From Gracilinema caldarium (GTDB lineage: Bacteria > Spirochaetota > Spirochaetia > Treponematales > Breznakiellaceae): a stretch of 64,000 nucleotides of DNA. The translations under genes were made by a program, and so were the position numbers. Positions 2,821-40,662 of the stretch are shown here, piece after piece. Where the stretch lies: positions 1-64,000 of the forward strand of contig NZ_JAJUHW010000008.1 of NCBI RefSeq assembly GCF_029265695.1, given 5' to 3'. How positions within the stretch are numbered: the stretch's first letter is position 1; every line of letters starts with the position of its first letter. The notes under the pieces are model-generated. The model had not been told where the DNA came from. It did no database searches and saw only the letters and a list, made by a program, of their open reading frames with translations.

Positions 2821-3723
2821 TTAATTACCGGATAAGGCGGTTTTAATTCGATCGGGCATATCGGTAATGATGCCGGTGACGCCCCAGGATACAAGATCCC
2901 GGGCCAGTTGAGGCTCATTAACGGTCCACGCCTGGGTAAGCCGGCCGTGATTCCGTTCTGTGGCGACCAGTTCCGGATTTACCATAGAATAGCGGGGGTG
3001 CCAGGCTTCGTGTCCAGATTTTCCCGCGATATCAGGAAGATACTGGTTTATTAAGGTTGTGGTGTAAGAAGGACTTGCCTCTTCCACAAGAAAACCTACA
3101 GGGATAGAGGGTTTGATTGCCTTAAATCGTTTGAGGGTCGGTGGGTTAAACGATGACACAATAACATTCCGGGCCATGTCATAGCGGTCGATACAGGCTG
3201 CCACCAGGGCCTCAATGCCGTTGTCGTCAGCGGCATCGCCGCTGGCAGCATCGCCGCTAGCGAAACCGCCGCTGGCGAAACCGCCGCTGGCGGTACAATA
3301 GGGGGCCTTGATTTCCACATTAACGATAAAGTCCGCCGGAGCCCTGTCTTTAACCAGAGAAAACACTTCTTCCAGGGTTGGGATCATAATAAATGGATAG
3401 TGGGGAATATGGCCCTGGAGGGGCTCTGCCATGGGCGAGAACCGAGCGGCCGCATTCAGTTCCCTCAGTTCAGCAAAAAGCAGGTCCCGTACCGCTCCGG
3501 TCCCATCGGTGGTGCCGTCTACGGTAAAATCATGAATGATGACCAGTTCCCGATCCGCAGAAAGCTGAACATCGAGTTCTATACCGTCAGCGCCTTGTTG
3601 TATAGCAAGCTCAAAGGCCGGAATAGTATTCATCGGTGCATAGGCCCTGCTGCCTCGGTGCCCGTAAACAATAGTTCTTCCTTCCTGAAAGGCCTGTAAG
3701 ACGTAGTTAGTGCGCTTATCCAT
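2821..3723 (-). CDS. ugpQ: Glycerophosphodiester phosphodiesterase UgpQ
   Basis: Cytoplasmic enzyme that splits glycerophosphodiesters into glycerol-3-phosphate and an alcohol, so it feeds on what the Ugp importer brings in. The GDPD barrel is clear: HRGSRAYAPMNTIPAF near the start (the usual ENT reads MNT here), then IELDVQLSAD with the acidic metal ligands, and VIIHDFTVD with the second catalytic histidine. Near the C-terminus AWTVNEPQLARDLVSWGVTG is typical. About 300 residues. Three ATG codons stand in a row at 3729-3721; the third (3723) has the best spacing (7) to AGGAG. The middle of the protein carries a five-residue repeat (ASGGF/ASGDA, encoded at 3237-3296) not expected in the family. 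The start overlaps the pncB stop region, so the two are coupled. Confidence 0.92.
   Translation of the reverse strand: MDKRTNYVLQAFQEGRTIVYGHRGSRAYAPMNTIPAFELAIQQGADGIELDVQLSADRELVIIHDFTVDGTTDGTGAVRDLLFAELRELNAAARFSPMAEPLQGHIPHYPFIMIPTLEEVFSLVKDRAPADFIVNVEIKAPYCTASGGFASGGFASGDAASGDAADDNGIEALVAACIDRYDMARNVIVSSFNPPTLKRFKAIKPSIPVGFLVEEASPSYTTTLINQYLPDIAGKSGHEAWHPRYSMVNPELVATERNHGRLTQAWTVNEPQLARDLVSWGVTGIITDMPDRIKTALSGN
3237..3296. repeat. 15-bp tandem repeat (four units) inside ugpQ
   Basis: Four consecutive 15-base units start with CGCCGCT(G/A)GC: 3237-3251, 3252-3266, 3267-3281 and 3282-3296, with a degenerate fifth unit before them. They encode ASGGF and ASGDA pentapeptides in UgpQ. Because the unit is a multiple of three, gain or loss of copies keeps the frame. 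Confidence 0.85.
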
Positions 3724-20371: not shown

Positions 20372-20394
20372 AAACGGTGTTGTGTGGAGTTTAT

Positions 20395-20778
20395 ATGACT
20401 AACCTTAAAGAAACTGTGGTGTGCGCCTGTACGGAGGTGCATCCGGAAGCGGTGGAAGAGGCCCGGAGAGAAGAACTGCCGGTTCCCCAGCTATTGGCCA
20501 TGTCTGAACTGTTTAAAATTCTCGGTGATCCTACACGGCTTAGAATAGTCAATGCCCTCGCTCATGAACGGGAGCTCTGTGTGTGCGATCTCTCCCGCGC
20601 CCTCGATATGACCCAGTCGGCCATAAGCCATCAGCTTTCGCTGTTAAGACGTGCCCGGCTCGTCCGGTTCCGCAAGGATGGCAAGGTTGTCTATTACAGC
20701 CTTGACGATGACCATGTGGAAGGTCTTCTTGCCATAGCCGCGGGCCACGTTTCCGAACAGGGGATGGTACAAGCATGA
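20395..20778 (+). CDS. ArsR/SmtB-family metal-responsive repressor
   Basis: A winged-helix repressor of 127 residues that should release DNA when it binds a heavy metal. The core is typical: LFKILGDPTRLRIVNAL, then ELCVCDLSRALDMTQSAISHQLSLLRRARLV with the ELCVCD metal-binding motif on helix 3, as in CadC and ArsR. An N-terminal CAC pair, as in CadC, could complete a thiolate site for Cd, Pb or Zn. The ATG at 20395 has GTGGAG 5 bases upstream. Its stop overlaps the ATPase start by four bases (ATGA), so they are coupled. A perfect SmtB-type operator lies upstream, predicting autorepression. Confidence 0.93.
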   Translation: MTNLKETVVCACTEVHPEAVEEARREELPVPQLLAMSELFKILGDPTRLRIVNALAHERELCVCDLSRALDMTQSAISHQLSLLRRARLVRFRKDGKVVYYSLDDDHVEGLLAIAAGHVSEQGMVQA

Positions 20779-22760
20779 AAGATGCCTGCTGTTCATCCGG
20801 CGCTTGTTCTGTAGATATATCAAAAGTTCAAGCGGTTACGTTCCGCTTATCCCAGGAACAAAGAAAAGAATTGGTGTTGCTCATCGCTGCTTTTGTCCTT
20901 GGCCTCTCAGGCATAGTATTGTGGGAGTTTTCTCCCCATCTTTCTGCCCAGTCTGCCAGCGGCACCGCTCCGCTCTTTTCGGTAGTCGCCATTATAAGCC
21001 TAGCGGCTGCATATATACTTGCAGGCTATGAGGTTCTGCGCGGCGCAGCGCGGAATATCATACAATTAAAGCCCTTTGATGAGCTCTTTTTAATGTCCCT
21101 CGCCTCCCTGGGAGCCTTTGCAATCGGCGCTATGGAAGAGGCTGTGGGAGTTATGGTCCTTTATCGTGCGGGTGAGTTTTTACAGGATGTGGCGGTTACC
21201 AAGAGCAGGCAGTCTATTAAAGCGCTGCTCAGCCTAAAAGCAGAAACCGCCCGGGTTTTGAGAAACGGTCAATGGGAACAAATAGAAAGCGCTTCGGTAC
21301 AAATAGGAGAACTTGTGCAGATTCGTCCCGGCGAACGGGTGCCTGTGGATGGAGAAGTTATAGAGGGCACAGGATCACTCGATACGGCATCCATGACCGG
21401 TGAGAGCCTTCCCCGGCCAGCCCAGGCTGGAACGGAGGTACTCTCGGGTTTTATTGTCATGGACGGAGTCCTCGTAATTCGCACCCTCAGGCTTGCAAAG
21501 GATTCAGCGGCCAGCCGCATCATTTGGCTTGTAGAGGAAGCAACGAAAAATAAAGCAAAGCCTGAGCAGTTTATTCACCGCTTTGCCCTCTGGTACACGC
21601 CGGCGGTAGTTTTTCTTGCTTTGGCGGTGGCGCTTGTACCGCCCCTCCTTGTTCCGGGGCAGCGTTTCTCCCTATGGATTTACCGGGCCCTTACCATGCT
21701 GGTCATTTCCTGTCCCTGTGCCTTTGTGCTCAGTATTCCATTAAGCTATTTCGCAGGTCTCGGCGGCGCTGCCCGGAAGGGAATCCTCGTGAAAGGGGCG
21801 GCTGTATTGGATACGCTCGCCAAGGCGCGTTCGGTGGTCTTTGATAAAACCGGCACCCTCACGGATGCGGCATTTACGGTAAAACATATCCAGCCCGCCG
21901 ATGGATTTACCGCCGAAGAGCTTCTTTCCCATGCGGTCCTTGCCGGTTCAGCATCGAACCACCCGCTTTCGGTAGCAGTCCAACGGTTTTATGCTTCTCA
22001 ATACGGAAAGGCTTATCAATCTGTACAGCCTGATGAGTCTTCCAGTTTTACCGAAATTCCCGGCCATGGTTCGGTTGCCACTGTGCAGGGCCGTGAGATT
22101 ATTGCAGGGAACGACCGTCTTTTACATCTTAAAAAGATTCCTCACCGGTGCGAAGATATGGAAGAGTCGGTTATCCATGTGGCGGTAGCGGGGACCTATG
22201 CGGGAAAAATCATGCTCGGCGATAGGGTTAAAGCGGGTGCACAGGAAGCCCTTCGGGATCTCAAAAAACTGGGAGTACAAGATATTGCGGTTCTTACCGG
22301 CGATAATGAGGGGCCCGCCATGAGGACTGCCCGCGAACTGGGCGGTATTCCGGTTCATCATGGGCTGCTTCCGCAGGATAAGCTTGCAAAAGTGGAGTCC
22401 ATGCTCCAAGATATCAATGGCCGAGGAAGCCTTGTTTATGTAGGGGACGGCATTAACGATGCGCCGGTCCTTGCCCGGTCAGATGCGGGAATTGCCATGG
22501 GCGGAATCGGCACCGATGCGGCTATAGAAAACGCCGATGTGGTTTTAATGACCGATGAGGTAAGGCGCATACCCCAGCTCATCATTCACGCAAAAAAAAC
22601 ACAGAGGATTGTTACGCAAAACATTGTGTTTGCCCTTGGCTTTAAGATGACCTTTCTTGCCCTGGGTGCCCTGGGCTTTGCAAGCATGTGGGAAGCGGTC
22701 ATTGCAGATGTGGGTGTAGCATTGCTTGCGGTAGTGAATGCGAGCCGGGCCCTGCGGTAA
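20775..22760 (+). CDS. P1B-type heavy-metal ATPase (ZntA/CadA group)
   Basis: Inner-membrane ATPase of 661 residues exporting Zn, Cd or Pb. The metal site CPC (VISCPCAFVLSIPLSYFAG) and the last-span Asp (VIADVGVALLAVVNASRALR) mark the P1B-2 (ZntA) group. The phosphorylation site FDKTGTLT, the TGES loop (MTGESLPRPA), the SNHPLS nucleotide site (HP) and GDGINDAPVL are all intact. The N-terminus lacks a folded heavy-metal-associated domain; instead there is a short Cys-rich tail (KDACCSSGAC) that could pick up metal. Coupled to the ArsR-type gene upstream. It ends one base before the end of nikO, so no terminator fits between them. Confidence 0.94.
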   Translation: MKDACCSSGACSVDISKVQAVTFRLSQEQRKELVLLIAAFVLGLSGIVLWEFSPHLSAQSASGTAPLFSVVAIISLAAAYILAGYEVLRGAARNIIQLKPFDELFLMSLASLGAFAIGAMEEAVGVMVLYRAGEFLQDVAVTKSRQSIKALLSLKAETARVLRNGQWEQIESASVQIGELVQIRPGERVPVDGEVIEGTGSLDTASMTGESLPRPAQAGTEVLSGFIVMDGVLVIRTLRLAKDSAASRIIWLVEEATKNKAKPEQFIHRFALWYTPAVVFLALAVALVPPLLVPGQRFSLWIYRALTMLVISCPCAFVLSIPLSYFAGLGGAARKGILVKGAAVLDTLAKARSVVFDKTGTLTDAAFTVKHIQPADGFTAEELLSHAVLAGSASNHPLSVAVQRFYASQYGKAYQSVQPDESSSFTEIPGHGSVATVQGREIIAGNDRLLHLKKIPHRCEDMEESVIHVAVAGTYAGKIMLGDRVKAGAQEALRDLKKLGVQDIAVLTGDNEGPAMRTARELGGIPVHHGLLPQDKLAKVESMLQDINGRGSLVYVGDGINDAPVLARSDAGIAMGGIGTDAAIENADVVLMTDEVRRIPQLIIHAKKTQRIVTQNIVFALGFKMTFLALGALGFASMWEAVIADVGVALLAVVNASRALR

Positions 22761-22761
22761 T

Positions 22762-23493
22762 TTAACGCTGAAGCGACAGGGGAAGTTCGAGGCCCGCCGA
22801 TTCAAGCAGCAGCCGGTCCTTAAGGATCTGCTGTGCTGTTCCCCTGGCTGCAAGGGTCCCCTGATGGAGCAGGATGACTTCATCGCAGAGTTCCAGTGCC
22901 AGATCTAAGTCGTGGGTCGCAATCAGTTTTGTATGGGGAAGACTCCTGAGCAGGTTGATGGTATTTCTTCTTGATCGTGGATCGAGGGCGTTTGTTGGCT
23001 CATCTAGTAAAAGGATTTCTGCATCGGTGGCGAGAATGGTGGCCAAGGACACTAAGCGCTTTTCGCCCCCCGAAAGACGGTAGGGGGGCCTCTCTGCAAG
23101 ATGGAGACAGCCGGTTTTTTCCATGGCCTCTGTTGCCCGTGTTTCGATCTCCTGCTCAGAATAGTGAAGGTTCCGGGGTCCAAATTCCACATCCTGCCGG
23201 ACCGTAGCCATAAACAGCTGGTCCTCTGGATTCTGGAACGCAAGGCCAATTTTTCTTTGTATCTGGCGGACCGTTCCTCGATTCAGCGGAATTTCATCAA
23301 TATGGATGCTTCCCTGACTGGCTTCTAAAATACCTGCAATGAGCCAGAGCAGGGTAGTTTTGCCGCTGCCGTTTGCCCCTGCCAAAGCAACCGTCGTTCC
23401 GGCCTGTATAGAAAAGGACAAATTGGAAAGCACTTGCCAACCATCGGGATAGGTGTGGCTTAGTTTATCTACAACGATGCGTGGTTTATCCAT
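22762..23493 (-). CDS. nikO: Energy-coupling (ECF/Nik) transporter ATP-binding protein NikO
   Basis: ATPase subunit (243 residues) of a nickel or cobalt energy-coupling-factor transporter. Walker A is GANGSGKTTLLWLI, the Q loop AFQNPEDQLF, the signature LSGGEKRLV, Walker B AEILLLDEPTNALD, and the switch His follows in IATHD. It is the last gene of a minus-strand operon and overlaps the membrane partner nikQ by 8 bases. Nickel is preferred over cobalt because the operon also holds hypA and hypB; I see no cobalamin genes. The gene ends one base from the metal ATPase stop on the other strand. Confidence 0.9.
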   Translation of the reverse strand: MDKPRIVVDKLSHTYPDGWQVLSNLSFSIQAGTTVALAGANGSGKTTLLWLIAGILEASQGSIHIDEIPLNRGTVRQIQRKIGLAFQNPEDQLFMATVRQDVEFGPRNLHYSEQEIETRATEAMEKTGCLHLAERPPYRLSGGEKRLVSLATILATDAEILLLDEPTNALDPRSRRNTINLLRSLPHTKLIATHDLDLALELCDEVILLHQGTLAARGTAQQILKDRLLLESAGLELPLSLQR

Positions 23494-24307
23494 GTAGTGC
23501 CTTGAAACCAGTTATGAACATATCGCCTAACAGGACAGAGATTGGAAAGATTCGGAACATAACAAAGCTGCTTATACAGATGAGAATAAATGCAATATCC
23601 TTAAAGGATATCCTGGGCACCTGCCCAAAGGGCTGTGCCGGATCGTATCCTCGTAACTTCATGGCCTGTTCAATACGCAGCCCCTGTTCATAGGTCCGTA
23701 TCAAGATGCTTGCAGGAACGGTCCCCCACTCCTGCAGCCGGAGCTTTGGGTTCCCGCCGCTTCGTATTTCATAGGCCCGCATCGCCCGGTATATATCTTC
23801 CAGTAAGAGCATAATGTAGCGGTATACCATGGTAAAAAGCAAATAAAAAAGAGGGGGGATCCCCAGGCTTTTCATTGCTTTTTGCAGTCCGCCGATGCCT
23901 AAAATACTGATAAGCAAGAAATTAGCCAGTATGGTTAAAAATGCTTTTACAAGAAGAGAGATGAAAATAATCCAGCCCCAGCTGAAGGAAAGGGAGCCAA
24001 CCTTAAAAAAAACGGGATCTGTAAAAGGCTGCAGTATTCCAATCATGATAATGAGGGGCATGACTTTCACTGTTGCTGTAATAAGAGGTTTGAGGGGGAT
24101 GCGGGCAAACCGGGCCAGCAGTACGGGAAAGATGCAATAGGGTATCAATACACTTACAGCCGTGTATGGATACGAAGAAATGGCAATGATGAATCCAACA
24201 ATGGTAACCAGCAGTGCTGCCGGATGAAGCCGGTGTACACTGCTGGAGAGGGATGCAAATTCCTCGAAGCCTCTGAATCGTTGTTCTTCTTTTGTATAGA
24301 TTACCAC
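23486..24307 (-). CDS. nikQ: Energy-coupling transporter membrane protein NikQ
   Basis: Membrane coupling subunit (273 residues, five or six spans) that joins the substrate subunit NikMN to the ATPase NikO. Two ATPase-docking helices are visible in the second half, ending in short Ala-Arg-Gly type motifs (AYEIRSGG, and AMKLRGYDPA). The start is a GTG at 24307 that overlaps the nikMN stop by 7 bases; no ATG is available nearby and the ribosome site is weak, so translation is probably coupled to nikMN. CbiQ of a cobalt system would look the same; nickel is inferred from the neighbours. Confidence 0.88.
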   Translation of the reverse strand: MVIYTKEEQRFRGFEEFASLSSSVHRLHPAALLVTIVGFIIAISSYPYTAVSVLIPYCIFPVLLARFARIPLKPLITATVKVMPLIIMIGILQPFTDPVFFKVGSLSFSWGWIIFISLLVKAFLTILANFLLISILGIGGLQKAMKSLGIPPLFYLLFTMVYRYIMLLLEDIYRAMRAYEIRSGGNPKLRLQEWGTVPASILIRTYEQGLRIEQAMKLRGYDPAQPFGQVPRISFKDIAFILICISSFVMFRIFPISVLLGDMFITGFKALHG

Positions 24308-25332
24308 TTTGCTTTCTGTACAGGCTCAGGTTTGTTTTTGGGTTTTAAGGCAAACCCGATGATGAAAACGAGCAGAAAGGTAAAAAACGCTCCTGCGATT
24401 CCTGAAACACTGGTCCCCGCGTCAGCTTTAGGCCATGTTTCTGGTGCTTCGCCTGCAGTCCCGAAGGAATAATCGGGCAGTATGGCGGTCTTTTTTTGGA
24501 GATCCGAAAAAAGACCATGTACATTGCTTGCACTCTCTATATCAACCGAACCGGAGACTTTTTCAATTGACCATTCAAGGCCGTCTGGTTGAGTAGAGGC
24601 AAACCATGAGAGGATGCCGCCGGTAAAAAGTGCAGCAACAATAAAAACCGCCCCAAGTTTTTCTATAGCTGGCGCTGTTCTACTCTGAGTGCGAGAATGA
24701 GACAGAATCTGGGGGGCTGTTTTTTCTACAGAGGAAATGATAGCGGCGGTAATGAAGCCTTCTACAAGGCCGATAGCCAAATGGATTGGCTGCATCAGCA
24801 TGACAAAGGTAAAGAAAGGAAGTTCTGTTTTGTTGGAGAAGAGTGTTTCCAGAACCACCGAGAAGGCCCCCAATTGCAGACCTATAACACTGGCAAGTAC
24901 TATTGAGCCCTTGCTGAAGATATATCTCTTGTCTACTTTTTTACTGAGTTGACAAAAGAGCGGATAGGCTACAAAACAGGTGCAAAAAGCAAGGTTAAAA
25001 ACATTGCATCCGTAGCTTAATAGCCCACCGTCGGCAAAAAAAAGCGCTTGAATGAACAATATGGCAGCCATGGTTAAAAAGGCGAGGTGGGGACCAAGGA
25101 GAATGGATAAAAGCAGTCCCCCTCCAATATGTCCACTCGAACCGGTGCCTGGGATGGAAAAATTAATCATCTGGGCTGCAAAAACAAAGGCTCCCAGAAT
25201 ACCCGCCAGGGCAATATGGTCTTGTTCTTCCTTTTCCCGGGCCTTTTTTACCGAATAGGCCCCGACAGCCAGCGTCGCTGTCCACATTACTGCACCGACC
25301 TGCGGGGATATCAGGGCATCCGCCATGTGCAT
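24301..25332 (-). CDS. Nickel (cobalt) substrate-capture protein NikMN fusion
   Basis: Substrate-binding membrane subunit, 343 residues. The N-terminal part is NikM/CbiM: MHMADALISP, whose His2 and backbone bind the metal, then HIGGGLLLSILLGPHLAFLTM. The C-terminal part, after a span, carries the PDGLE motif (STQPDGLEWSIEKVSG) and a last span, i.e. a NikN-like partner fused to NikM as in NikMNQO systems. The ATG at 25332 has AAGGAG 8 bases upstream. It follows hypA by 27 bases in the six-gene operon. The fused N component and hyp neighbours favour nickel over cobalt. It is a known arrangement for Ni uptake in bacteria. Confidence 0.9.
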   Translation of the reverse strand: MHMADALISPQVGAVMWTATLAVGAYSVKKAREKEEQDHIALAGILGAFVFAAQMINFSIPGTGSSGHIGGGLLLSILLGPHLAFLTMAAILFIQALFFADGGLLSYGCNVFNLAFCTCFVAYPLFCQLSKKVDKRYIFSKGSIVLASVIGLQLGAFSVVLETLFSNKTELPFFTFVMLMQPIHLAIGLVEGFITAAIISSVEKTAPQILSHSRTQSRTAPAIEKLGAVFIVAALFTGGILSWFASTQPDGLEWSIEKVSGSVDIESASNVHGLFSDLQKKTAILPDYSFGTAGEAPETWPKADAGTSVSGIAGAFFTFLLVFIIGFALKPKNKPEPVQKAKW

Positions 25333-25359: not shown

Positions 25360-25602
25360 TTACAGGGCCACAATCTCTTTAATAAGAAAATCCCGGCCGG
25401 GAATTGTCTCAATCTCCAGTTCCGTATCCTGCAGTGTGGTTCCATCTACCGCTGCAGGATAACATACACGGAGGTATTGCGGAACGACCGGAGATTCCTC
25501 CCCCACTTGAAGCACCAGGGTTTTAATCTGATTCACCCCCTGTTCCTTGGCAAAGGTTTCTACGGTCTCCACAATATGCATCATGATGCCTAGTTCGTGC
25601 AC
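25360..25602 (-). CDS. hypA: Hydrogenase nickel metallochaperone HypA lacking the zinc ribbon
   Basis: Nickel-insertion chaperone, here only 80 residues where HypA is usually about 113-118. The N-terminus MHELGIMMHIVETVE supplies the Ni-binding Met-His-Glu. The first domain is normal up to LEIETIPG, and the normal C-terminal strand (GRDFLIKEIVAL) follows at once. The four-cysteine zinc ribbon that stands between these parts in known HypA proteins is absent, with no frame break. The start is GTG at 25602, with GGAG 7 bases upstream, inside the last codons of the oxidoreductase gene. Whether such a protein still delivers nickel is open; HypB and NikMNQO in the same operon argue that it does. 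Confidence 0.88.
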   Translation of the reverse strand: MHELGIMMHIVETVETFAKEQGVNQIKTLVLQVGEESPVVPQYLRVCYPAAVDGTTLQDTELEIETIPGRDFLIKEIVAL

Positions 25603-28313
25603 TGTTTTTCTCCAGACTTCTCTTTTTTGCCGAACAGGGCGCCAAGATTGGTGAGTACCGTCTTACCCGCAATTTTTACCTTGCGTTTGAGGATATATTT
25701 GATGACCGTCGGCTTAATTTTTTCATAGGGAAGCTGTTCTGCGTCATAGCGCCGCACCAGTTTTATTGCCTCAAACTTGCAGCGGGTCACGCACTGGCCG
25801 CAGCCGAGACACATGAATTCATCGATAACTGTTGCTCCGCAGCTCAGACAGCGTTCGGTTTCTTTCTTCACCTGTTCCTCGGTCAGTACACCCCGAATGT
25901 CATGGAACGAGAGTTTTTCTTCCTCCTTCGCATGAACGATAGGCCGCTGCCGCGGGATGGCATCGTAGCCTTCCAGGTTCAGGTTTTCTTTATCAATAGG
26001 TTTGTAATCCCGTTTAAGTCTTCCCAGTACAAGGCTCTGTCCCTTATGAACAAAGCGGTGCAGAGAGATAGCCCCTTCCTTGCCTAATGCAATAGCATCG
26101 ATTGCGAACTTCGGACCGGTTACAACATCGCCGCCGGCAAAGACATCCGGTTCGCTGGTCTGGAAGGTTGTCGGATTCACCTTAACGGTTTTATTTGGAT
26201 TAAGTTCAATGCTGGTTCCTTCCAGAACCTTGCCCCAGTCAATCGCCTGTCCTACCGAAAGCAGGACCCGGTCAGCTTCCACCGTAATGGTAGTGTTTTC
26301 ATCAAAAGCGGGATTGAATCGTCCGCTTTCATCAAAAACACGGACGCACTTTTTAAATTCCACACCGGCAACCTTGCCGTCTTTAACGATGATCCGTTTG
26401 GGGCCCCAGGAATTTTCGATACGAATGTCTTCTTCCAGCGCTTCATCGATCTCTTCAGGAAGGGCTGGCATTTCAGGCCTCGATTCGAGACAATACATAC
26501 TTACCTGCTGTCCGCCAGAGCGGATTGCGGTACGGGCCACGTCTATGGCCACATTTCCGCCGCCGATTACGATGACCTTGCCCTGAATGTCCGGTTTCTG
26601 ACCCAGGTTGACCATACGAAGGAAGTCAACACCGGTAAATACGCCCTGGGCGTCTTCGCCCTCAAGTCCGAGTTTCCGTCCTGCCTGAGCGCCGATTGCG
26701 AGGTAAAATCCTTCGTATCCCTGCTTGCGCAATTCAGGTATAGTTACATCTTTGCCAACTTCTATTCCAGTTTTAAATTCCACACCAAGCTCTCTCAGGA
26801 TATCGATCTCCGCATCGATAACATCCTTTTCCAGCCGGTACGCAGGAATACCAAAGGTGAGCATACCACCCAGTTTTTGTTCCTTTTCAAAGACCGTGAC
26901 GCGGTAGCCATCCAGGGCCAGGAAATAGGCACAGGAAAGTCCTGCAGGACCTGCGCCAATAACGGCAATTTTATTGCCATAGTTGTGCTGTTTTTTGGGA
27001 ATATAGCGGGTATCCCCATGCAGATCCTTTTCGGCGATGAACTTTTTAATTTCATCTACCGCAACCGGATTGTCCAAGTCTCCCCGGGTACACTGGGATT
27101 CGCACTTGCGGGGGCAGATACGGCCGCAGACTGCAGGGAAGGGATTTTCCTTTTTGATGAGCTCCAGCGCTTCCCGATAACGGCCCTGGGAAGCTAGTTT
27201 GATATATCCCTGAACGGCAATGTGGGCAGGACAGCCCGCTTTACAGGGACTGGAACCCGTGTCTTCTACCACCTTTTTATTGATCCGGTAGTCCGGGTTC
27301 CAATGTTCCGGTCCCCATTCGGTATCGTAGGGCAGGACTCGGTTCACCTTTTTGCGTTCCGCTTCGGTGGTGCAGATTTTCTGGCCCAGCTTTGCCGCAT
27401 TGCTGGGGCAGTTTTCCACGCATTCGCCGCAGGCTACGCATTTATCCGGATCTACCTGGGCAACAAAGTTAGACCTGACCATGTCGGGGTTCCGGTACAT
27501 ATTGGCAATACGGTTGGAAAAACAGCCGCAGCCGCAGCAGTTGCAGATTGCATGGGTATGACCGGGGCCGTCCAGGTTGGGAATACTGTGCATAAGGCCG
27601 TTTTCTTCCGCCCGGTGCATAATTTCCAGGGCTTCTTCTTTACTGATTTGCCGGGCCCTTCCGGTACGGATATAGTATTCGGCCGCATGGTTTAACTGGA
27701 TGCACATATCCTCCTTGAGGTGTCCGCAGCCTTCACCCATAACTTCACGGGAGGTTCGGCAGGAGCAGTCTGAAACAGAGATAAGCTGTGCATCCTGGAT
27801 GTATTTTTCTACTTCTTCAAAGGAGGCATGACGGGTTTCGCCATCAATCGCCTTTTGTATGGGAATAACCCGCATGGGGCCTGCTCCGACGGGGAAATTG
27901 CCCGCCGCAAGGGGGCCCTTTCGTTTTCCGTAGGCATCAAAGGCCCGGGCTACCTCTGGATGTTTACGAACATTCTCTTTGTTGTTCACGATCATTTCCA
28001 TATGGCCAGGAACCCACACTTCGTGCCAGAACTGGTCTACGCCATCGATCTTGTTGACAATAGTAACCCCTGCATAGGCCAGATCCCAGAGGAGCTTGGT
28101 GGTTTCTTCCACCGATTTGCCGCAGCGGGCGGCAATCTGTTCAGCGGTCTGGGGTTTCCGAAATTCGACCTGCAATGCTACCAGAGCCATTTCATCGGTA
28201 ACGATGGGATCCAATATCTGGTATTCTGGATATTCCGGTTTAATTTCGTCCTTGGCTCCCCGTTTTGTTTTACTGATTTTGTTTGCTAAATCGAGGATGA
28301 GTTCCCGTGCCAT
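25590..28313 (-). CDS. Multidomain iron-sulfur FAD/NAD(P) oxidoreductase (GltD/NfnB-like)
   Basis: A 907-residue soluble redox protein. The first 300 residues hold Cys clusters (SVSDCSCRTSREVMGEGCGH; CNCCGCGCFSN) and a ferredoxin-type 4Fe-4S motif (CVACGECVENCPSNAAK). Next comes a GltD-like part: Cys motifs (SPCKAGCPAHIAVQGYI; CGRICPRKCESQC), an FAD site (IAVIGAGPAGLSCAYFLA) and an NAD(P) site (VIVIGGGNVAIDVARTA). A final Cys motif ends it (CLGCGQCVTRCKFEAI). This suggests electron transfer between NAD(P)H and ferredoxin-like carriers. The ATG at 28313 follows the hypB stop by one base and uses AAGGGGAA inside hypB; the earlier ATG at 28355 lies inside hypB. Its place between hypB and hypA suggests a link to nickel-enzyme assembly or to that enzyme's electron flow. 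Exact role unknown. Confidence 0.85.
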   Translation of the reverse strand: MARELILDLANKISKTKRGAKDEIKPEYPEYQILDPIVTDEMALVALQVEFRKPQTAEQIAARCGKSVEETTKLLWDLAYAGVTIVNKIDGVDQFWHEVWVPGHMEMIVNNKENVRKHPEVARAFDAYGKRKGPLAAGNFPVGAGPMRVIPIQKAIDGETRHASFEEVEKYIQDAQLISVSDCSCRTSREVMGEGCGHLKEDMCIQLNHAAEYYIRTGRARQISKEEALEIMHRAEENGLMHSIPNLDGPGHTHAICNCCGCGCFSNRIANMYRNPDMVRSNFVAQVDPDKCVACGECVENCPSNAAKLGQKICTTEAERKKVNRVLPYDTEWGPEHWNPDYRINKKVVEDTGSSPCKAGCPAHIAVQGYIKLASQGRYREALELIKKENPFPAVCGRICPRKCESQCTRGDLDNPVAVDEIKKFIAEKDLHGDTRYIPKKQHNYGNKIAVIGAGPAGLSCAYFLALDGYRVTVFEKEQKLGGMLTFGIPAYRLEKDVIDAEIDILRELGVEFKTGIEVGKDVTIPELRKQGYEGFYLAIGAQAGRKLGLEGEDAQGVFTGVDFLRMVNLGQKPDIQGKVIVIGGGNVAIDVARTAIRSGGQQVSMYCLESRPEMPALPEEIDEALEEDIRIENSWGPKRIIVKDGKVAGVEFKKCVRVFDESGRFNPAFDENTTITVEADRVLLSVGQAIDWGKVLEGTSIELNPNKTVKVNPTTFQTSEPDVFAGGDVVTGPKFAIDAIALGKEGAISLHRFVHKGQSLVLGRLKRDYKPIDKENLNLEGYDAIPRQRPIVHAKEEEKLSFHDIRGVLTEEQVKKETERCLSCGATVIDEFMCLGCGQCVTRCKFEAIKLVRRYDAEQLPYEKIKPTVIKYILKRKVKIAGKTVLTNLGALFGKKEKSGEKQCTN

Positions 28314-28314
28314 A

Positions 28315-29007
28315 TTATTCCCCTTTTGTTGTGGTATGTATTGTTTTCCAAGCATGGATTTCGTTAGTAAGCCAGGTTACCCAGGACTCCACACCTTCGC
28401 CGGTTTTTGCTGAAATCGGAAAAATCTGAGCCTTTGGATTTAATTCTGTAATATGTTTTCTGAAACGCTCAAGGTTAAAATCGAAGAGCGGGAGTGCATC
28501 AATCTTGTTGATGAGAATAGCATCGACCCGTTGAAACATAACAGGATATTTAAGCGGCTTATCATCTCCTTCGGGGACACTTAAAATCATGACATTCAGG
28601 GCCGCGCCGGTGTCATATTCGGCGGTGCAGATAAGATTTCCCACATTTTCGAGGAAGACTATATCGAGATCTTCTGTGGCAAGGTTCTCCAAGCCTTGCC
28701 GGGTCATTTCAGCATCGAGGTGGCACATGCCCCCGGTATGGAGCTGAATCACCTTGACACCGCTTGTGGCAATAGTGGAAGCATCCACATCTGAATCTAT
28801 ATCCGCTTCCATAACTCCTATGCGGAACCTGTCTTTCAGGGCCCCAATGGTTTTCATGAGGGTTGTTGTTTTACCCGAACCGGGGGAAGACATGAGGTTG
28901 AGCAGAAAAACTCCCCGTTGTTCCAGGTCGGCGCGGAGCTTTTGAGCCCGCTCGTCGTTGCCGCTAAAAACGGTCTTTTTGATTTCCAAAACTCTGTAGG
29001 TGTTCAT
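28315..29007 (-). CDS. hypB: Hydrogenase nickel incorporation GTPase HypB
   Basis: GTPase of 230 residues that drives nickel insertion into NiFe hydrogenase or, in some organisms, other nickel enzymes. The P-loop is LMSSPGSGKTTTL; the metal site at the dimer interface appears as GGMCHLDAEM, and INKIDALP is the guanine specificity motif. The N-terminal CxxCGC high-affinity nickel site of E. coli and the His-rich stretch of rhizobial HypB are both missing, so this is the short type. The ATG at 29007 is preferred; the upstream extension from 29073 crosses the promoter. It is the first gene of the nickel operon and faces a GntR gene across 233 bases. Confidence 0.92.
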   Translation of the reverse strand: MNTYRVLEIKKTVFSGNDERAQKLRADLEQRGVFLLNLMSSPGSGKTTTLMKTIGALKDRFRIGVMEADIDSDVDASTIATSGVKVIQLHTGGMCHLDAEMTRQGLENLATEDLDIVFLENVGNLICTAEYDTGAALNVMILSVPEGDDKPLKYPVMFQRVDAILINKIDALPLFDFNLERFRKHITELNPKAQIFPISAKTGEGVESWVTWLTNEIHAWKTIHTTTKGE

Positions 29008-29240: not shown

Positions 29241-29948
29241 ATGGAATTACCAAAACTGCAGGCCCCGAGCCTGAAAGAACTTTTTATCAAAGAAATGGAA
29301 GCTCAAATTCTTTCCGGTAAACTGCCCATTGGATCAAAACTTCCTTCCGAGCGGGAAATCGCCGAAGCCATGGGGGTGAGCCGGGCGGTGGTAAACGGGG
29401 GCCTTATGGAAATGGCCCGTAAAGGGTTTCTTGAAATTAAGCCCCGGTCCGGCGCCTATGTGGCAGATTACCGACGAAGGGGAACCAGCGAGACCCTCCT
29501 GGCGATTATGAACTATAACGGCGGCATGCTGGGACGGGAAGAGATAAAGTCCATACTGGAGCTGCGCCTCGTGCTGGAGACCCTGGCGCTGGAACTTGCT
29601 ATTCCGCGGATGACCGATGCGGACCTTGCGGTCATAAAGGGTCATCTTGATAAGCTCGAATCCGCATCGGACCCGCAAACCGCCGCAGAGGCTGCTTTTT
29701 GTTTTCATTACGAACTTGGCATGATGTCGGGAAACAGCCTATTACCCCTCATTTTTTATTCTTTTAAAGCCCCGGTTACCATGCTCTGGAAACGGTATAT
29801 CCAGCTTCATGGCAAGGAAAAGCTCTTCGAAAACAACCGGGCCCTCTATGAGCAGATTGCGGCACGGAATGTACACGAAGCGGTTCGCCTTTTCCGGGAA
29901 TCCATTCATCAAACCATATCCGGCGGAGTCTCGATTTATTATGAGTAG
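29241..29948 (+). CDS. GntR family regulator, FadR subfamily
   Basis: A 235-residue transcription factor. The winged helix is typical (IGSKLPSEREIAEAMGVSRA, then MARKGFLEIKPRSGAYV), and the all-helical FCD ligand domain follows (ELRLVLETLALELAIPRMTD), with His and Asp residues that may hold a metal and an organic acid. GGAGG stands 10 bases before the ATG. It is divergent from the hypB-nik operon; a FadR-type palindrome lies on its own start site and a related half-site in the opposing promoter. The likely job is autoregulation and control of the nickel operon, though most FadR-type proteins sense organic acids rather than metals. Confidence 0.9.
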   Translation: MELPKLQAPSLKELFIKEMEAQILSGKLPIGSKLPSEREIAEAMGVSRAVVNGGLMEMARKGFLEIKPRSGAYVADYRRRGTSETLLAIMNYNGGMLGREEIKSILELRLVLETLALELAIPRMTDADLAVIKGHLDKLESASDPQTAAEAAFCFHYELGMMSGNSLLPLIFYSFKAPVTMLWKRYIQLHGKEKLFENNRALYEQIAARNVHEAVRLFRESIHQTISGGVSIYYE

Positions 29949-35010: not shown

Positions 35011-35289
35011 ATGGAGAAGAGAATCGGCATTGTAGCCATCCTTATTCAAGGCCGCGAATCGGTCGGCCAGGTTAATCAAATCCTCTCATCCCACAACCAC
35101 ATTATCCAGGGCCGTCTTGGTATGCCTTTCCGGGACAAGGGCGTACAGGTCATTTCCCTGGTCGTCGAAGGATCGACAGACCAAATCGGGGCTTTAACAG
35201 GTCCCCTGGGGCGCCTTAAGGGCGTTCAGGTCAAGTCGGTTCTGACGGGATACCGGGAGGATTCCAATGAAAACACAGACCCATCTTGA
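35011..35289 (+). CDS. TM1266-like [FeFe]-hydrogenase system regulator
   Basis: A 92-residue protein with an ACT-like fold (RIGIVAILIQGRESVGQVNQ; GVQVISLVVEGSTDQIGALTGPLGRLKGV), which matches the small proteins annotated as iron-only hydrogenase system regulators and found beside hydEFG. It has no DNA-binding domain, so the name is historical; it may bind a ligand or metal, or act on protein partners. The ATG at 35011 has AAAGGAG 6 bases upstream; the longer reading from 34954 lacks a site. It overlaps hydG by 23 bases, i.e. the hydG ribosome site and start lie inside it, so the two are coupled. Confidence 0.85.
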   Translation: MEKRIGIVAILIQGRESVGQVNQILSSHNHIIQGRLGMPFRDKGVQVISLVVEGSTDQIGALTGPLGRLKGVQVKSVLTGYREDSNENTDPS

Positions 35290-36817
35290 TGAACCCGCGG
35301 TGGCGGCGGCACAAAGCCCCGGGGCTTTGGCACAGCGCGCCGGATATCCATCAACCTTTTTGGACTATCAAAAGCTTTCTGACCTTTCCCGCTGTCCGGC
35401 TCCTTCCGCAAGCCGGGTTGGTGAAATCCTGGAAAAGGCGCGGACCTTGCAGGGCCTTACGGCAGAGGAAGCGGCGGAGCTCGCAGCGATAGGTGACCCT
35501 GAACAGATGCGGCAGCTGTTGGCGACCGCAGGCTGGGTAAAGGAACAGATTTACGGCAAGCGGATGGTCCTCTTTGCGCCCCTGTACACGGGAAATTACT
35601 GTGTTAACAACTGTGTGTACTGCGGTTTCCGTGTAGATAACCGGGACATGAGGCGGGTTGTCCTTTCTATGGATGAAATTGCCCGGCAGACGGAGATACT
35701 CCTTTCCCAGGGCCATAAGCGCATTCTTATTATTTCAGGAGAGTCGCCGAAACAGTCTTTGGACTATACCCTTAAGGCTATCGAAACCTGCTATGCGGTG
35801 CGGGTCGGCACTGCCCGGGTGCGGCGTATCAATGTGGAGCTTGCACCCCTCGATGTGGAGGGTTTCCGGGCTCTGAAAAAGGCTGGCATCGGCACCTATG
35901 TTTGTTTTCAGGAAACCTATGACCCGGATCTGTACCGCAGGGCCCATCCGTCGGGCCCCAAAGCGGATTATCTCTACAGGCTTTCTGTAATGGACCGGGC
36001 CATGGAAGGGGGGTGCGACGATATTGGACTCGGGGCCCTCTTTGGCCTCGGATCCTGGCGTTATGAACTGGTAGCCCTGCTGGAGCATGCCCGCCACCTG
36101 GAAGAAACATTCGGTTGGGGGCCCCACACGGTAAGCGTGCCCCGGATCGAATACGCCCCCGGGGCGCCCTGGGCGGAGGTGGTGCCCAATCCGGTCTCGG
36201 ACGACGACTTTCGCAAAATTGTGGCTATTCTCCGCATCGCCCGGCCCTCGGTGGGGATTATTCTTTCTACCCGGGAGCGGACCGAATTCCGCAAGGAACT
36301 CCTCGCCTACGGGGTAAGCCAAATTTCCGCCGGTTCCCGTACTGATCCGGGGGGCTACGAAGCAGACGGGCCGCAGGATAAGTCTGAGGCCGCTCCCGCT
36401 GCCAGCGCGACAACTCTGGCCGCTGCAGCAGCCCTGGGATGCCCAGCGTCTAAGCCCGGTGCGGCCCAGCATCCTGCTCAGTTTGCCATCGGCGATCACC
36501 GGGGGCTCGAAGAAACCATATCGGATCTCATAGATGACGGGTATGTCCCCAGCTTTTGTACCGGCTGCTACCGCAGGGGCCGGACCGGCGCGGACTTTAT
36601 GGATCTGGCCAAGCCGGGGCTAATCAAGGAATTCTGTCTTCCTAATGGACTTGTTTCTTTTGCGGAGTATCTCTATGACTATGCATCCCCTGCAACTCGG
36701 GAAAAGGGTCTTGCCTTGATCCGCCGTATGCAGGCAGAGGCTACACCAAAGGGCAGGGTATATTTGGAGAAAGCCCTCGCTGAAACCGAGGCCGGAGCAC
36801 GGGATCTGTATTTATGA
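35267..36817 (+). CDS. hydG: [FeFe]-hydrogenase maturation radical SAM enzyme HydG
   Basis: Radical SAM tyrosine lyase that makes the CO and CN ligands of the H-cluster as an Fe(CO)2(CN)-cysteine synthon. The radical SAM cluster motif CVNNCVYC lies at Cys112, Cys116 and Cys119. The C-terminal CxxC for the auxiliary cluster is FCTGCYRRGRTG near residue 430. The protein has 516 residues; a stretch at about 365-403, rich in Ala and containing PAASATTLAAAAALG, looks like an insertion between GSRTDPGGY and FAIGDHRGLEE, which are adjacent in other HydG proteins. GGAGG stands 6 bases before the ATG, which lies inside the preceding gene. Its stop overlaps hydE by four bases. Confidence 0.96.
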   Translation: MKTQTHLDEPAVAAAQSPGALAQRAGYPSTFLDYQKLSDLSRCPAPSASRVGEILEKARTLQGLTAEEAAELAAIGDPEQMRQLLATAGWVKEQIYGKRMVLFAPLYTGNYCVNNCVYCGFRVDNRDMRRVVLSMDEIARQTEILLSQGHKRILIISGESPKQSLDYTLKAIETCYAVRVGTARVRRINVELAPLDVEGFRALKKAGIGTYVCFQETYDPDLYRRAHPSGPKADYLYRLSVMDRAMEGGCDDIGLGALFGLGSWRYELVALLEHARHLEETFGWGPHTVSVPRIEYAPGAPWAEVVPNPVSDDDFRKIVAILRIARPSVGIILSTRERTEFRKELLAYGVSQISAGSRTDPGGYEADGPQDKSEAAPAASATTLAAAAALGCPASKPGAAQHPAQFAIGDHRGLEETISDLIDDGYVPSFCTGCYRRGRTGADFMDLAKPGLIKEFCLPNGLVSFAEYLYDYASPATREKGLALIRRMQAEATPKGRVYLEKALAETEAGARDLYL

Positions 36818-37914
36818 ACAATCCGTTTAACACTGCGCCGTCTATCTCCGCGCCTGCCGATTTAACACTTGTCGGTTCTGCGCCAGGGCGGCTTCCTGTT
36901 CAAGGAGCCAGCGAAGCGGAAATCCGGGACTTAGCTACACTCCCCTTGGATGAACTCAAAGCTCTGGCCCGCAAAACCGCCGATGCGGTCCATGGTAACA
37001 AGGTGCTGCTCAGAGGGCTTATTGAAGTAACTAACCACTGTGCCATGAACTGCCTCTATTGCGGAATCAGGCGAAGCAACGGTAGCACGGTCCGGTATCG
37101 GCTGAGCCATGAGGAACTCGCTGAGACGATACGGGCGGGGCGGCGGGCCGGGTTTATGACCTTTGTGCTCCAGGGCGGGGAGGACCCAGCCCTTACAGGG
37201 GAGGGGCTCCTGCGGCTTACCGAGACAGCCCGGGCCGCCGCCGGGCCGGAGGCCGCCATCACCTTGAGTTTCGGCATCAGAAGCCGCAGGGAATACCAGG
37301 AACTAAAGGTGGCGGGGGCTGACCGCTACCTGATGCGCTTCGAGACCGCCGACGCGGATCTGCACCGGTACCTCCGGGCCGGTATCAGCTTGGAGCGGCG
37401 GCTCCGGGCCCTGGAGGATCTGCGGGCCGCGGGGCTGCAGCTTGGCTCGGGCTTTATGACGGGCCTTCCCGGCGAAACGGAGGAGACCCTTATCCAGAAT
37501 ATCCTCCTAGCCGCAAGCCTCGGGATGGAAATGGGCGGGGTTGGGCCCTTTATTCCCCATCCGGCAACCCCCCTTGCGGCTTCCCCGGGAGGAGACCTTG
37601 AACGGGCAGTTCGGGCCACGGCCCTCCTCAGGCTTGCCCTGCCGGCCTGCCATATTCCGGCCACCACTGCCGCGGGTTCTATCCATCCCGAGGGCCGGGA
37701 ACAGATGCTCGAAGCGGGGGCCAATGTCCTTATGCCGAACATAACGCCGGTTTTGCAGAAAAAACATTACCTCCTGTATCCGGGTAAAATTTGTATTGAT
37801 GAATCGGGCTTCCACTGTGTGGGTTGTCTTTCGGTTCGGGTGATGAGCCGGGGGCTCAGCTTAAGCTGGGACCGGGGAGACTCGCTGGGCTTTTATGAAA
37901 GGGTGCAACCATGA
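36814..37914 (+). CDS. hydE: [FeFe]-hydrogenase maturation radical SAM enzyme HydE
   Basis: Radical SAM enzyme (366 residues) that converts the HydG product into the diiron precursor taken up by HydF. The cluster motif is CAMNCLYC at Cys76, Cys80 and Cys83. A second set, C-x7-C-x2-C (CIDESGFHCVGC), near the C-terminus, has exactly the spacing of the optional [2Fe-2S] site known in Thermotoga HydE. The glycine-rich segment QGGEDPALTGEGLL and LPGETEETL are typical. ATGA overlap with hydG, and the lyase gene follows 10 bases later, so the order is hydG-hydE-lyase-hydF. Confidence 0.96.
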   Translation: MNNPFNTAPSISAPADLTLVGSAPGRLPVQGASEAEIRDLATLPLDELKALARKTADAVHGNKVLLRGLIEVTNHCAMNCLYCGIRRSNGSTVRYRLSHEELAETIRAGRRAGFMTFVLQGGEDPALTGEGLLRLTETARAAAGPEAAITLSFGIRSRREYQELKVAGADRYLMRFETADADLHRYLRAGISLERRLRALEDLRAAGLQLGSGFMTGLPGETEETLIQNILLAASLGMEMGGVGPFIPHPATPLAASPGGDLERAVRATALLRLALPACHIPATTAAGSIHPEGREQMLEAGANVLMPNITPVLQKKHYLLYPGKICIDESGFHCVGCLSVRVMSRGLSLSWDRGDSLGFYERVQP

Positions 37915-37924
37915 GGAGTCGAAT

Positions 37925-39361
37925 ATGAGCATGAAACAGACCCAGGCGGCGGTCCGCAATTTCGGTCAGGGCCAGACCCCGCCAGAGTTTATTCAGGCCC
38001 TGGCGGAAGTAAAAGAAGCGGCTCTGCGGGCCCTGCAAGAAACTGAACAACCCTGGCCGGATAGGGTTTTTGAGGTAGTACTTCAGGTGCTGCAGGAGAT
38101 TTGCTCTGGTGCTTTGGACAGTCGGTTCCCCCTGGACTTAGCCCAGGGAGGGGCGGGGACAAGCCTCCATATGAATATCTGTGAAGTCCTGGCCGACGAA
38201 GTAGAAGGGCAGCTCGGGCAGTCCGGTTTGTTTCATCCTTTAGACGACGGCGCCCGCTCCCAGTCTACTAACGATGTGGTCAGCACCGCCGCAGTTATAG
38301 TGGTTCTGCGTCGCCTTTTGCGCCTTGAAAAGGCAGTCATCGCCCTGCAGGAGGCATTGGTTGAACGGGAACAGGCTTGGCGGGGGATTCCAGTAATGGG
38401 CCGCACCGAGTGGCAGGACGCCCTCCCCATGGATCTTTCCCAGGTAGCCTCCGCCTGGGCAGGATCGGCTGAACGGGACCGGTGGCGCCTCGGAAAACTA
38501 AAAGAGCGCTGCAGAACCATTCCCCTGGGCGGCACCGCCACTGGTACGGGCACAGGGGCATCGGCAGCCTACCTGTTTGCGGCGGAACAGCAGCTCCGCA
38601 GGCTCACCGGTCTCCCGCTGCAGCGGAGCCAGAACCTGACCGATGCGGTGACCCAGCGGGATGACTTTGCCGAGGTGGCTAACGGGTTTGCGCTGATTGG
38701 GGCCAATATGGTAAAGCTGTGCCGGGATCTCATGTTTTATACATCAACAGTGGTTGGGGAACTGGAACATCCCGCATTGCAATGGGGCTCCACCGCCATG
38801 CCGGTAAAGACTAATCCGGTGCTTTTAGAGTTTGCCATGGGCCTCAGTATCAGGGCCCAGCACCGGGCCGCGTCCATAGTTCACTATGCCCAGGAGGGTT
38901 TTCTCCAGCTTAATGCCTTTACCCCCTTTATGGTAGACGCCTTTATCGATGCCGCTTCCGATCTGGAACGGGCCCTCATCACCCTGTCCCGGGACCTGCT
39001 TCCGGCCCTCCAAGTCAGGCCTGACCGCTGTGTCCGTAACATACTGCGATCCCGGGCCCTGCTTAACCTCTTTCGCAGCGATCTCCCCTACGAGGAGCTT
39101 AAGGAGCTTGTCGATTCGTGGGAGGCTGAGGGTAGCGACTTAGACGCGGGTGTTTCAGGCATGCTTGGGCGGTTTGTGGGCGAATTATCCCGCCGCACGG
39201 GGCTAGAAATTGGCCTTATACAGCAGCGGTGCGCTCCCCTGTTTTGGTGTGTAAACAGACATGGTACCCCCCTGTTTAGCTCAGCGGACTTACATACTTT
39301 TAGCCTGGCTATTGCTAAAGCTCAGTGCCCAGGGGAGACCGACTCCCAGAAGGAGCAGTGA
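37925..39361 (+). CDS. Aspartase/fumarase-superfamily lyase of the hyd cluster
   Basis: A 478-residue member of the aspartase/fumarase superfamily, the same length as E. coli aspartase. QGGAGTSLHMNICEVLADE and the region GARSQSTNDVVSTA match the substrate-binding segments of aspartase. The mobile signature loop reads GSTAMPVKTNPV, fitting the family pattern GSxxMPxKxNP with the catalytic Ser. Aspartase releases ammonia and fumarate from aspartate. Placed between hydE and hydF, it could supply ammonia for the bridging amine of the H-cluster ligand; this is inference. GAGGAG stands 6 bases before the ATG at 37925. Reaction type could also differ: the central region WRGIPVMGRTEWQDALP shows the usual GRTHxQ as GRTEWQ. 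Confidence 0.85.
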   Translation: MSMKQTQAAVRNFGQGQTPPEFIQALAEVKEAALRALQETEQPWPDRVFEVVLQVLQEICSGALDSRFPLDLAQGGAGTSLHMNICEVLADEVEGQLGQSGLFHPLDDGARSQSTNDVVSTAAVIVVLRRLLRLEKAVIALQEALVEREQAWRGIPVMGRTEWQDALPMDLSQVASAWAGSAERDRWRLGKLKERCRTIPLGGTATGTGTGASAAYLFAAEQQLRRLTGLPLQRSQNLTDAVTQRDDFAEVANGFALIGANMVKLCRDLMFYTSTVVGELEHPALQWGSTAMPVKTNPVLLEFAMGLSIRAQHRAASIVHYAQEGFLQLNAFTPFMVDAFIDAASDLERALITLSRDLLPALQVRPDRCVRNILRSRALLNLFRSDLPYEELKELVDSWEAEGSDLDAGVSGMLGRFVGELSRRTGLEIGLIQQRCAPLFWCVNRHGTPLFSSADLHTFSLAIAKAQCPGETDSQKEQ

Positions 39362-39363
39362 AC

Positions 39364-40662
39364 ATGATGATGACAGAAAAGATGCAGGAGGCAATGCCGG
39401 TCCTGCAGAGTCCCCTCTCAGAGTCTGCGGCTATTGTGGTGACCGGGCTTAGAAATGCGGGAAAGTCCAGTTTGATAAACACCCTTTTTGAGCGGGATGT
39501 TTCCATTGTGTCCCCAGTTCCGGGAACCACCACTGACCCGGTGAGCCGTAAAATGGAGCTTCCCGGCTGGGGCCCTGTCGCCTTTGTGGATACCGCCGGT
39601 ATCGATGATGAAGGTGAACTGGGCGAGAAGCGGCGGGAAAAGACCGAGGCGCGCCTAGCTTCTGCTGCAGCGTATATTTTCGTAACCCCGGGCCACCGGG
39701 GCGTAGCTGGGGAAGAAAAAAAGCTTCTTGAGCGGCTCATTGCAAGCGGGAAGCCCCTGGTCATAGCCGTAACCCACGGAGACCAGCCGAACCATGGGGA
39801 AAAACAGCAATGGCTCGACGGGCTTGTTGCAGGGGGCTGCAAAATGGTTCGGGTGGATAACACTTCCCGCTCTGGCGGGTCGGAACTTCGCCGGCTTCTT
39901 TCTGCCCTGGCGGATCGGGCTGAGTTCGAAAGCGGCCCCTTGGACGGGCTTGTCCGCGAAGGAGACCATCTTTTGCTTGTGGTTCCCATCGACCTGGCGG
40001 CTCCCCGGGGGAGACTCATACAACCCCAGGTGGAAACCATCCGGGACGCCCTGGACCGGGACTGCCGGGTAACGGTGGTAAAGGAACGGGAACTCTACGA
40101 GGCCTACCGGAGTTTTCGCGAACCGCCCCGGCTTGTCATTACTGACAGTCAGGTCTTTTCCAAGGCGGCCGCCGACATCGACCCAGACCAGGCCCTGACG
40201 AGTTTCTCCATCCTGTTTGCCCGGAAAAAGGGAGAGCTTGCTTCTTTGGTGCGGGGGCTCCGGGCCCTGGAGCGTTTTAAGCGCGGCGGCCGCGTCTTTG
40301 TGATGGAAGCCTGTTCCCACCACCGGGGAGCCGATGATATTGCATCGGTAAAAATCCCCCGTCTCTTTGCCCGCCTGGTTACTCCCGATGCCCGGTTCCA
40401 GACGGTCCGCCAGCTTCCAGAGGATCTGAGTCCTGAGGACCTGGTGATTCATTGCGCGGGCTGCATGATGACCGGCAACGCAATGAGACACCGTTTGCAA
40501 ACCATTGAGGCTCGGGGCGTCCCGGTAACCAATTATGGCCTCTTCCTTGCCTGGGCGAACGGGCTTTTGCCCCGGGCTATCAATATGCTTCCCGAATTTC
40601 CAATTCTCTATCCCGCTGGCGGATTGCCCGGTATTGGGAGTGGTAAAATTTTACCGCGTTGA
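39364..40662 (+). CDS. hydF: [FeFe]-hydrogenase maturation GTPase HydF
   Basis: Scaffold GTPase (432 residues) on which the diiron subcluster is completed and handed to apo-hydrogenase. The G domain has the P-loop GLRNAGKSSLIN, the switch VPGTTTDPVS and AFVDTAGIDDEG; the guanine motif NKxD is replaced by THGDQ. The C-terminal 4Fe-4S ligands appear as CSHH (C-x-H) and, about 45 residues later, HCAGC. The start is an ATG triplet at 39364-39372; AAGGAG is 8 bases before the first. The stop of the lyase gene is 2 bases upstream. The last 83 bases overlap the end of the MATE gene on the opposite strand. Confidence 0.95.
   Translation: MMMTEKMQEAMPVLQSPLSESAAIVVTGLRNAGKSSLINTLFERDVSIVSPVPGTTTDPVSRKMELPGWGPVAFVDTAGIDDEGELGEKRREKTEARLASAAAYIFVTPGHRGVAGEEKKLLERLIASGKPLVIAVTHGDQPNHGEKQQWLDGLVAGGCKMVRVDNTSRSGGSELRRLLSALADRAEFESGPLDGLVREGDHLLLVVPIDLAAPRGRLIQPQVETIRDALDRDCRVTVVKERELYEAYRSFREPPRLVITDSQVFSKAAADIDPDQALTSFSILFARKKGELASLVRGLRALERFKRGGRVFVMEACSHHRGADDIASVKIPRLFARLVTPDARFQTVRQLPEDLSPEDLVIHCAGCMMTGNAMRHRLQTIEARGVPVTNYGLFLAWANGLLPRAINMLPEFPILYPAGGLPGIGSGKILPR

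Follow-up and report, generated by a model that had tools for sequence, protein, structure and literature searches.

A HypA protein without the zinc ribbon, retained beside an IsrA-type oxidoreductase gene and a nickel/cobalt importer in Treponema

The window, that is, the whole stretch of 64,000 nucleotides of Gracilinema caldarium DNA analyzed here, carries hypB, an oxidoreductase gene, hypA, cbiM-PDGLE, cbiQ and cbiO in this order on one strand, with a divergent regulator gene at the hypB end:

22762..23493, minus strand: cbiO, importer ATPase (PF00005; TIGR04521 at 215.8 bits, below the cut-off of 330)
23486..24307, minus strand: cbiQ, importer transmembrane component (PF02361)
24301..25332, minus strand: cbiM-PDGLE (NikMN-type), substrate component of a nickel/cobalt ECF importer (PF01891, PF13190)
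25360..25602, minus strand: hypA, 80 amino acids, MHE nickel site present and zinc ribbon absent (PF01155 match, sibling alignment, model pLDDT of 91.2)
25590..28313, minus strand: IsrA-type Fe-S/FAD oxidoreductase, 921 amino acids (PF14691, PF07992, two Fer4), proposed nickel client
28315..29007, minus strand: hypB, GTPase (TIGR00073 at 244.6 bits, cut-off 121.2)
29241..29948, plus strand: GntR-type regulator, candidate regulator of the cassette (similarity to GntR-family regulators)

The open reading frame of the oxidoreductase is listed from 28355 with a likely ATG start at 28313, and its stop overlaps the start of hypA; that of hypB is listed from 29073 with a likely start at 29007, aligned with relatives. 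As the original prediction had it for hypB and the importer, the neighbors are intact by their sequences: hypB, the 921-residue Fe-S/FAD oxidoreductase and the CbiM-PDGLE, CbiQ and CbiO importer components are all present. HypB keeps both metal-site cysteines of its G domain, Cys117 and Cys149, as do its relatives (18 of 18). The cassette is probably transcribed as one operon, and homologs of the GntR-type regulator stand beside it also in L004, L099 and L104. In all three species with a ribbonless HypA described below, an ArsR-type regulator and a Zn/Cd-family P-type metal-exporting ATPase (20377-22760, plus strand, in the window) adjoin the nickel importer; the ribbon-bearing loci that were fetched showed neither of them, and the association may be coincidence. 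Elsewhere in the window, HydG, HydE, an aspartase-like lyase and HydF lie in a row (35267-40662, plus strand) and constitute an [FeFe]-hydrogenase maturation cluster.

The hypA reading frame (25360-25602, minus strand) begins with GTG, and its product is VHELGIMMHIVETVETFAKEQGVNQIKTLVLQVGEESPVVPQYLRVCYPAAVDGTTLQDTELEIETIPGRDFLIKEIVAL. The N terminus VHELGI reads as MHE given the GTG start, and the C-terminal end is GRDFLIKEIVAL. The protein matches the Pfam HypA family PF01155 with 62.8 bits (E-value 3.7e-17, cut-off 28.9) over profile positions 1-70 of 112 only, and against TIGR00100, the canonical HypA equivalog, it scores 45.5 bits, below the cut-off of 88.1. The translation contains no CxxC motif and no cysteine pair of any kind. 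We aligned it with 15 ribbon-bearing HypA proteins, 14 of which adjoin an IsrA-like gene (none was found beside L006). The columns absent from the window protein are exactly those of the ribbon (CxxC...CxxC), the flanks align on both sides, and M1, H2 and E3 are invariant. The siblings are typically 113 amino acids long compared to 80 in the window, a gap of 33 residues or 99 nucleotides. The original prediction of an MHE start, both ends of the fold and a cleanly missing ribbon is borne out by the PF01155 match and by this alignment with HypA families, which it had suggested as a check; its loss of a two-CxxC segment stands, and its estimate of about 32 residues is corrected to 33. The two CxxC motifs of the HypA zinc site being absent, we describe the protein as a ribbonless variant and not as a canonical HypA. 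Of the 18 aligned HypA proteins, 16 share the cysteine that the window protein has at residue 47, in its second helix (CYPAAVDGT); L098 and L006 are the exceptions.

Codon comparison with L100, L005, L091, L093 and L103 positions the junction as follows:

25393..25401, minus strand: deletion junction, codons 68-70 (Pro-Gly-Arg), where siblings hold 33 residues (99 nucleotides) with two CxxC motifs

In the siblings, PG (or PA) precedes the ribbon and mostly SG or GG follows it. Several of them have CCCGGC and TCCGG-type letters at the two ribbon edges, from which it is a reasonable guess, and no more, that the deletion arose between short repeats. A detached ribbon elsewhere in the genome was considered and rejected: G000 has just one further PF01155 match, a weak one whose 20.4 bits fall below the cut-off, and the stretch upstream of it is presumably part of isoleucyl-tRNA synthetase.

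An AlphaFold2 model of the window HypA, computed with the sibling alignment, has a mean pLDDT of 91.2 and contains the core alpha/beta fold of HypA. The strands at 61-67 and 72-79 are joined at the ribbon site by a short turn, IPGR, in a predicted tight beta hairpin. When the model was compared with solved HypA structures, 79-80 residues aligned with Z of 11.2-13.8 and rmsd of 1.4-1.9 Å in the seven best rows, and the best Foldseek matches are also HypA; RidA-like folds, which have a common arrangement, rank below HypA with Z of 8.4 and below. The core fold and the MHE start are common to the window protein and the HypA proteins of Thermococcus kodakarensis and Helicobacter pylori (PDB 3a43, 5aun, 5yxy, 6g81, 2kdx). 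By contrast, the latter have a zinc domain with two CxxC motifs placed between the last two strands of the core, a domain that the window protein lacks, and they serve NiFe hydrogenase and, in H. pylori, also urease. The ribbonless core is thus predicted to close as a HypA fold, in a model that is silent on stability and metal binding.

The same in-frame gap is present in two further species of the genus, L003 (JAIWNU010000072.1) and L004 (JAAYUZ010000096.1), so that it is common to three species of this Treponema genus whose genomes were assembled separately. An assembly or sequencing error, which the original prediction had named as what could overturn its view, has in its favor only that the window comes from a draft genome, and we reject it in view of the identical gap on the records of two other species. 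Simple Nei-Gojobori counts on this short gene gave dS of 0.776, dN of 0.086 and dN/dS of 0.11 between the window and L004, with no indel and no stop, dN/dS of 0.16 between the window and L003 (few changes), and 0.08 between L003 and L004. Differences between the window and L004 fall on codon positions 1, 2 and 3 in the numbers 9, 6 and 28. Since hypA has no more than 13 nucleotides in common with the end of the oxidoreductase gene, the overlap does not account for this constraint. The short HypA is retained under purifying selection, with dN/dS about 0.1, and this together with the gap common to three species shows that it is neither an assembly error nor a decayed gene. The earlier view that the short form is not decayed agrees with the three species, the dN/dS values of 0.08-0.16, the third-position bias and the closed HypA core of the model.

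Neither HypA nor a close full-length IsrA-type gene is present in G001, a complete genome of the same genus, and the cassette is therefore not universal in the genus. This genome could be taken as a sign that hypA is a relic heading for loss and not yet decayed. We consider this very unlikely, because G001 lacks the whole cassette and not hypA alone, because dN/dS is about 0.1 at dS about 0.8 between the window and L004 without an indel or a stop, and because independent ribbon losses elsewhere were also retained.

In a tree of HypA cores from which the ribbon columns were left out, the window protein, L003 and L004 form a clade (support 100/92), and the sister of this clade is G378 (L100) with a full ribbon (support 96/89). 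The oxidoreductase tree has the same sister, G378, with support of 100, and the ribbon-bearing hypA of G378 adjoins the same gene cluster. Because this nearest relative keeps the ribbon beside the same cluster, the deletion is derived in this genus, and because more distant relatives also keep the ribbon beside the same oxidoreductase, the loss within that cluster belongs to this genus. The IsrA-type gene of G378 (L100:3835-6546) is interrupted by a single in-frame stop (GRGR*ITREEA), a point mutation or an assembly error; the rest of its frame is intact.

The 921-residue oxidoreductase comprises PF14691, PF07992 and two 4Fe-4S ferredoxin stretches, at 300-320 and 843-867, in the order of published IsrA (PMC10134865). 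The two CxC pairs of its proposed six-cysteine site, at 197/199 and 271/273, are conserved and stand at a constant offset of 17 from those of IsrA at 180/182 and 254/256. As likened by this published feature description, the protein is apparently a relative of IsrA, a putative isoprene reductase of Acetobacterium wieringae (PMC10134865). A sequence search found no solved structure covering residues 1-350 of the oxidoreductase. In A. wieringae, the isr operon includes two hypA genes and one hypB gene, NiFe hydrogenase is missing from the genome, and the protein proposed by the authors to receive nickel is IsrA; among 988 IsrA homologs, 73% are near hypA and 56% near hypB (PMC10134865). The window resembles the isr operon of A. 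wieringae ISORED-2 (IsrA, HypA1, HypA2, HypB, ferredoxin) in that an IsrA-type gene has hypA and hypB as neighbors and the genome has no NiFe hydrogenase. It differs in that HypA1 and HypA2 both carry two CxxC motifs, whereas the window has a single HypA with none, no separate ferredoxin gene adjoins, and an ECF importer is attached. Among 59 relatives sampled, the eight genomes with a close full-length IsrA are also those with an IsrA-type HypA.

Family searches of the draft genomes G000, G002 and G003 found no NiFe hydrogenase, CODH, urease or LarC, and these were set aside as HypA clients; the assemblies of the ribbonless clade are drafts or metagenomes, so that a client could have been missed. 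The original prediction cast the oxidoreductase as a possible helper of a zinc-less HypA. Its IsrA-type features make it more plausible as a nickel client than as a stand-in for zinc, and the lack of the other four candidates in the draft genome points in the same direction. It is possible in principle that the short HypA supplies another nickel protein instead of its IsrA-type neighbor: G000, G002 and G003 have LarA-like (PF09861) matches, and it is from draft genomes that other clients are judged to be absent. We regard this as quite improbable, given that G001 has a LarA-like match but no HypA, that LarC is absent from G000-G003 and that hydrogenase, CODH and urease are absent as well, while gene adjacency tracks IsrA across phyla.

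We favor, as the probable reading and with modest confidence, a functional ribbonless HypA that arose by one 99-nucleotide deletion and acts in a nickel route from the importer through HypA and HypB to the IsrA-type protein. A single in-frame deletion of 99 nucleotides in the ancestor of these Treponema species would have removed the zinc ribbon. Nickel would enter by the adjoining CbiM/Q/O importer, would be bound by HypA at its N-terminal Met-His-Glu site, where HypA has the GTPase HypB for a partner, and would be passed to the IsrA-type oxidoreductase, probably to its N-terminal six-cysteine site. Because the remaining core is predicted to close as a tight beta hairpin, both the fold and this client may do without zinc. 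Nickel binding by the window HypA, its partnership with HypB and the role of the IsrA-type protein as recipient are what we infer here. The TIGR00100 score below the cut-off weighs against this account, as does the fact that the presence of nickel has so far been proposed, for any IsrA-type protein, and no more than that. Caution about a zinc-free nickel route is called for above all by H. pylori HypA, in which single changes of zinc-site cysteines left hydrogenase activity at 9-60% of the wild type, several of these single changes bringing it to the knock-out level (PMC5557546), so that the ribbon matters there.

Where it was measured, the nickel affinity of the H. pylori zinc-site cysteine mutants is also about 10-fold lower (PMC5557546), and HypB retains metal-site cysteines of its own. 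Both would fit a short HypA that was kept for a purpose other than carrying nickel, as a partner of HypB or an assembly factor for the IsrA-type protein, with HypB delivering the metal. We judge this unlikely, as Met-His-Glu is invariant in all compared rows, which is hard to explain without nickel binding, and the route through HypA to the IsrA-type protein remains our preferred reading.

Loss of the ribbon extends beyond this genus. CxxC motifs are lacking in 9 of 91 HypA cores: the three of this genus, those of L086 and L087, two plasmid proteins (L108, L109), and those of L019 and L020. The tree of these 91 cores, which has only 80 columns and long branches, that of L086 above all, needs four changes, and four are forced by well-supported branches. 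A single origin of all ribbonless HypA proteins was rejected as one clade by the AU test (p = 0.00016), on the same 80 columns and with the long branch of L086. Ribbonless HypA proteins thus appear, by this tree, to have arisen at least four times in our sample, including in hydrogenase operons; three of these lineages, with losses of their own, lie outside this genus. The ribbonless HypA at L086 (G116; 2911-3153) adjoins HypB and a HypF-like protein, and from reading the sequences we take the further neighbors to be HoxF/HoxU-type hydrogenase subunits. That at L087 (G261; 2975-3238) is, by the same reading, presumably part of a NiFe-hydrogenase operon with a protease and HypF. The two plasmid proteins, from Pandoraea and Paraburkholderia (L108, L109), have genes annotated as nickel-dependent hydrogenase next to them and form one ribbonless lineage with L087. 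Like the window protein, this lineage has a HypA core without CxxC; it differs in its independent loss, in its linker and in its position beside hydrogenase genes and not an IsrA-type gene. The ribbonless HypA proteins of L019 and L020 (G056, G047) adjoin HypB, and that of L094 also adjoins a stretch similar to the N-terminal and ferredoxin region of IsrA; L094 and L095 are listed among the ribbonless HypA loci in other gene contexts, too. The 30 loci fetched from a sample of 391 Clostridia genomes all carry two CxxC motifs, with no ribbonless HypA among them. A candidate in G373 (C67) was set aside as unconvincing, with a weak match over 1-67 and no such protein passing the profile search.

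NCBI names the Pandoraea and Paraburkholderia plasmid proteins nickel metallochaperone HypA, so the ribbonless form is already in the databases. We found no paper in the open-access literature that describes a zinc-free or ribbonless HypA, and according to a review every HypA protein has one site for nickel and one for zinc (PMC7055735). The ribbonless HypA is a variant of the known HypA family that has a name at NCBI and, in the open-access papers searched, no description.

In conclusion, it is a tentative proposal, though one to be taken seriously, that there is a zinc-free class of HypA of repeated origin that works with HypB without communication between zinc and nickel sites. The ribbon would then be an addition specific to client or regulation, outside the mechanism of nickel transfer, and the form described here would deliver nickel to the six-cysteine site of its IsrA-type reductase, which would be a novel type of nickel enzyme. 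Because the zinc site is needed in H. pylori, a zinc-free form that occurs in nature is of interest. As a minimal nickel chaperone of 80 residues that is maintained by selection, it would allow the purpose of the ribbon to be asked directly, and it offers a simple system for testing whether IsrA-type reductases, which are widespread in anaerobes, are nickel enzymes.
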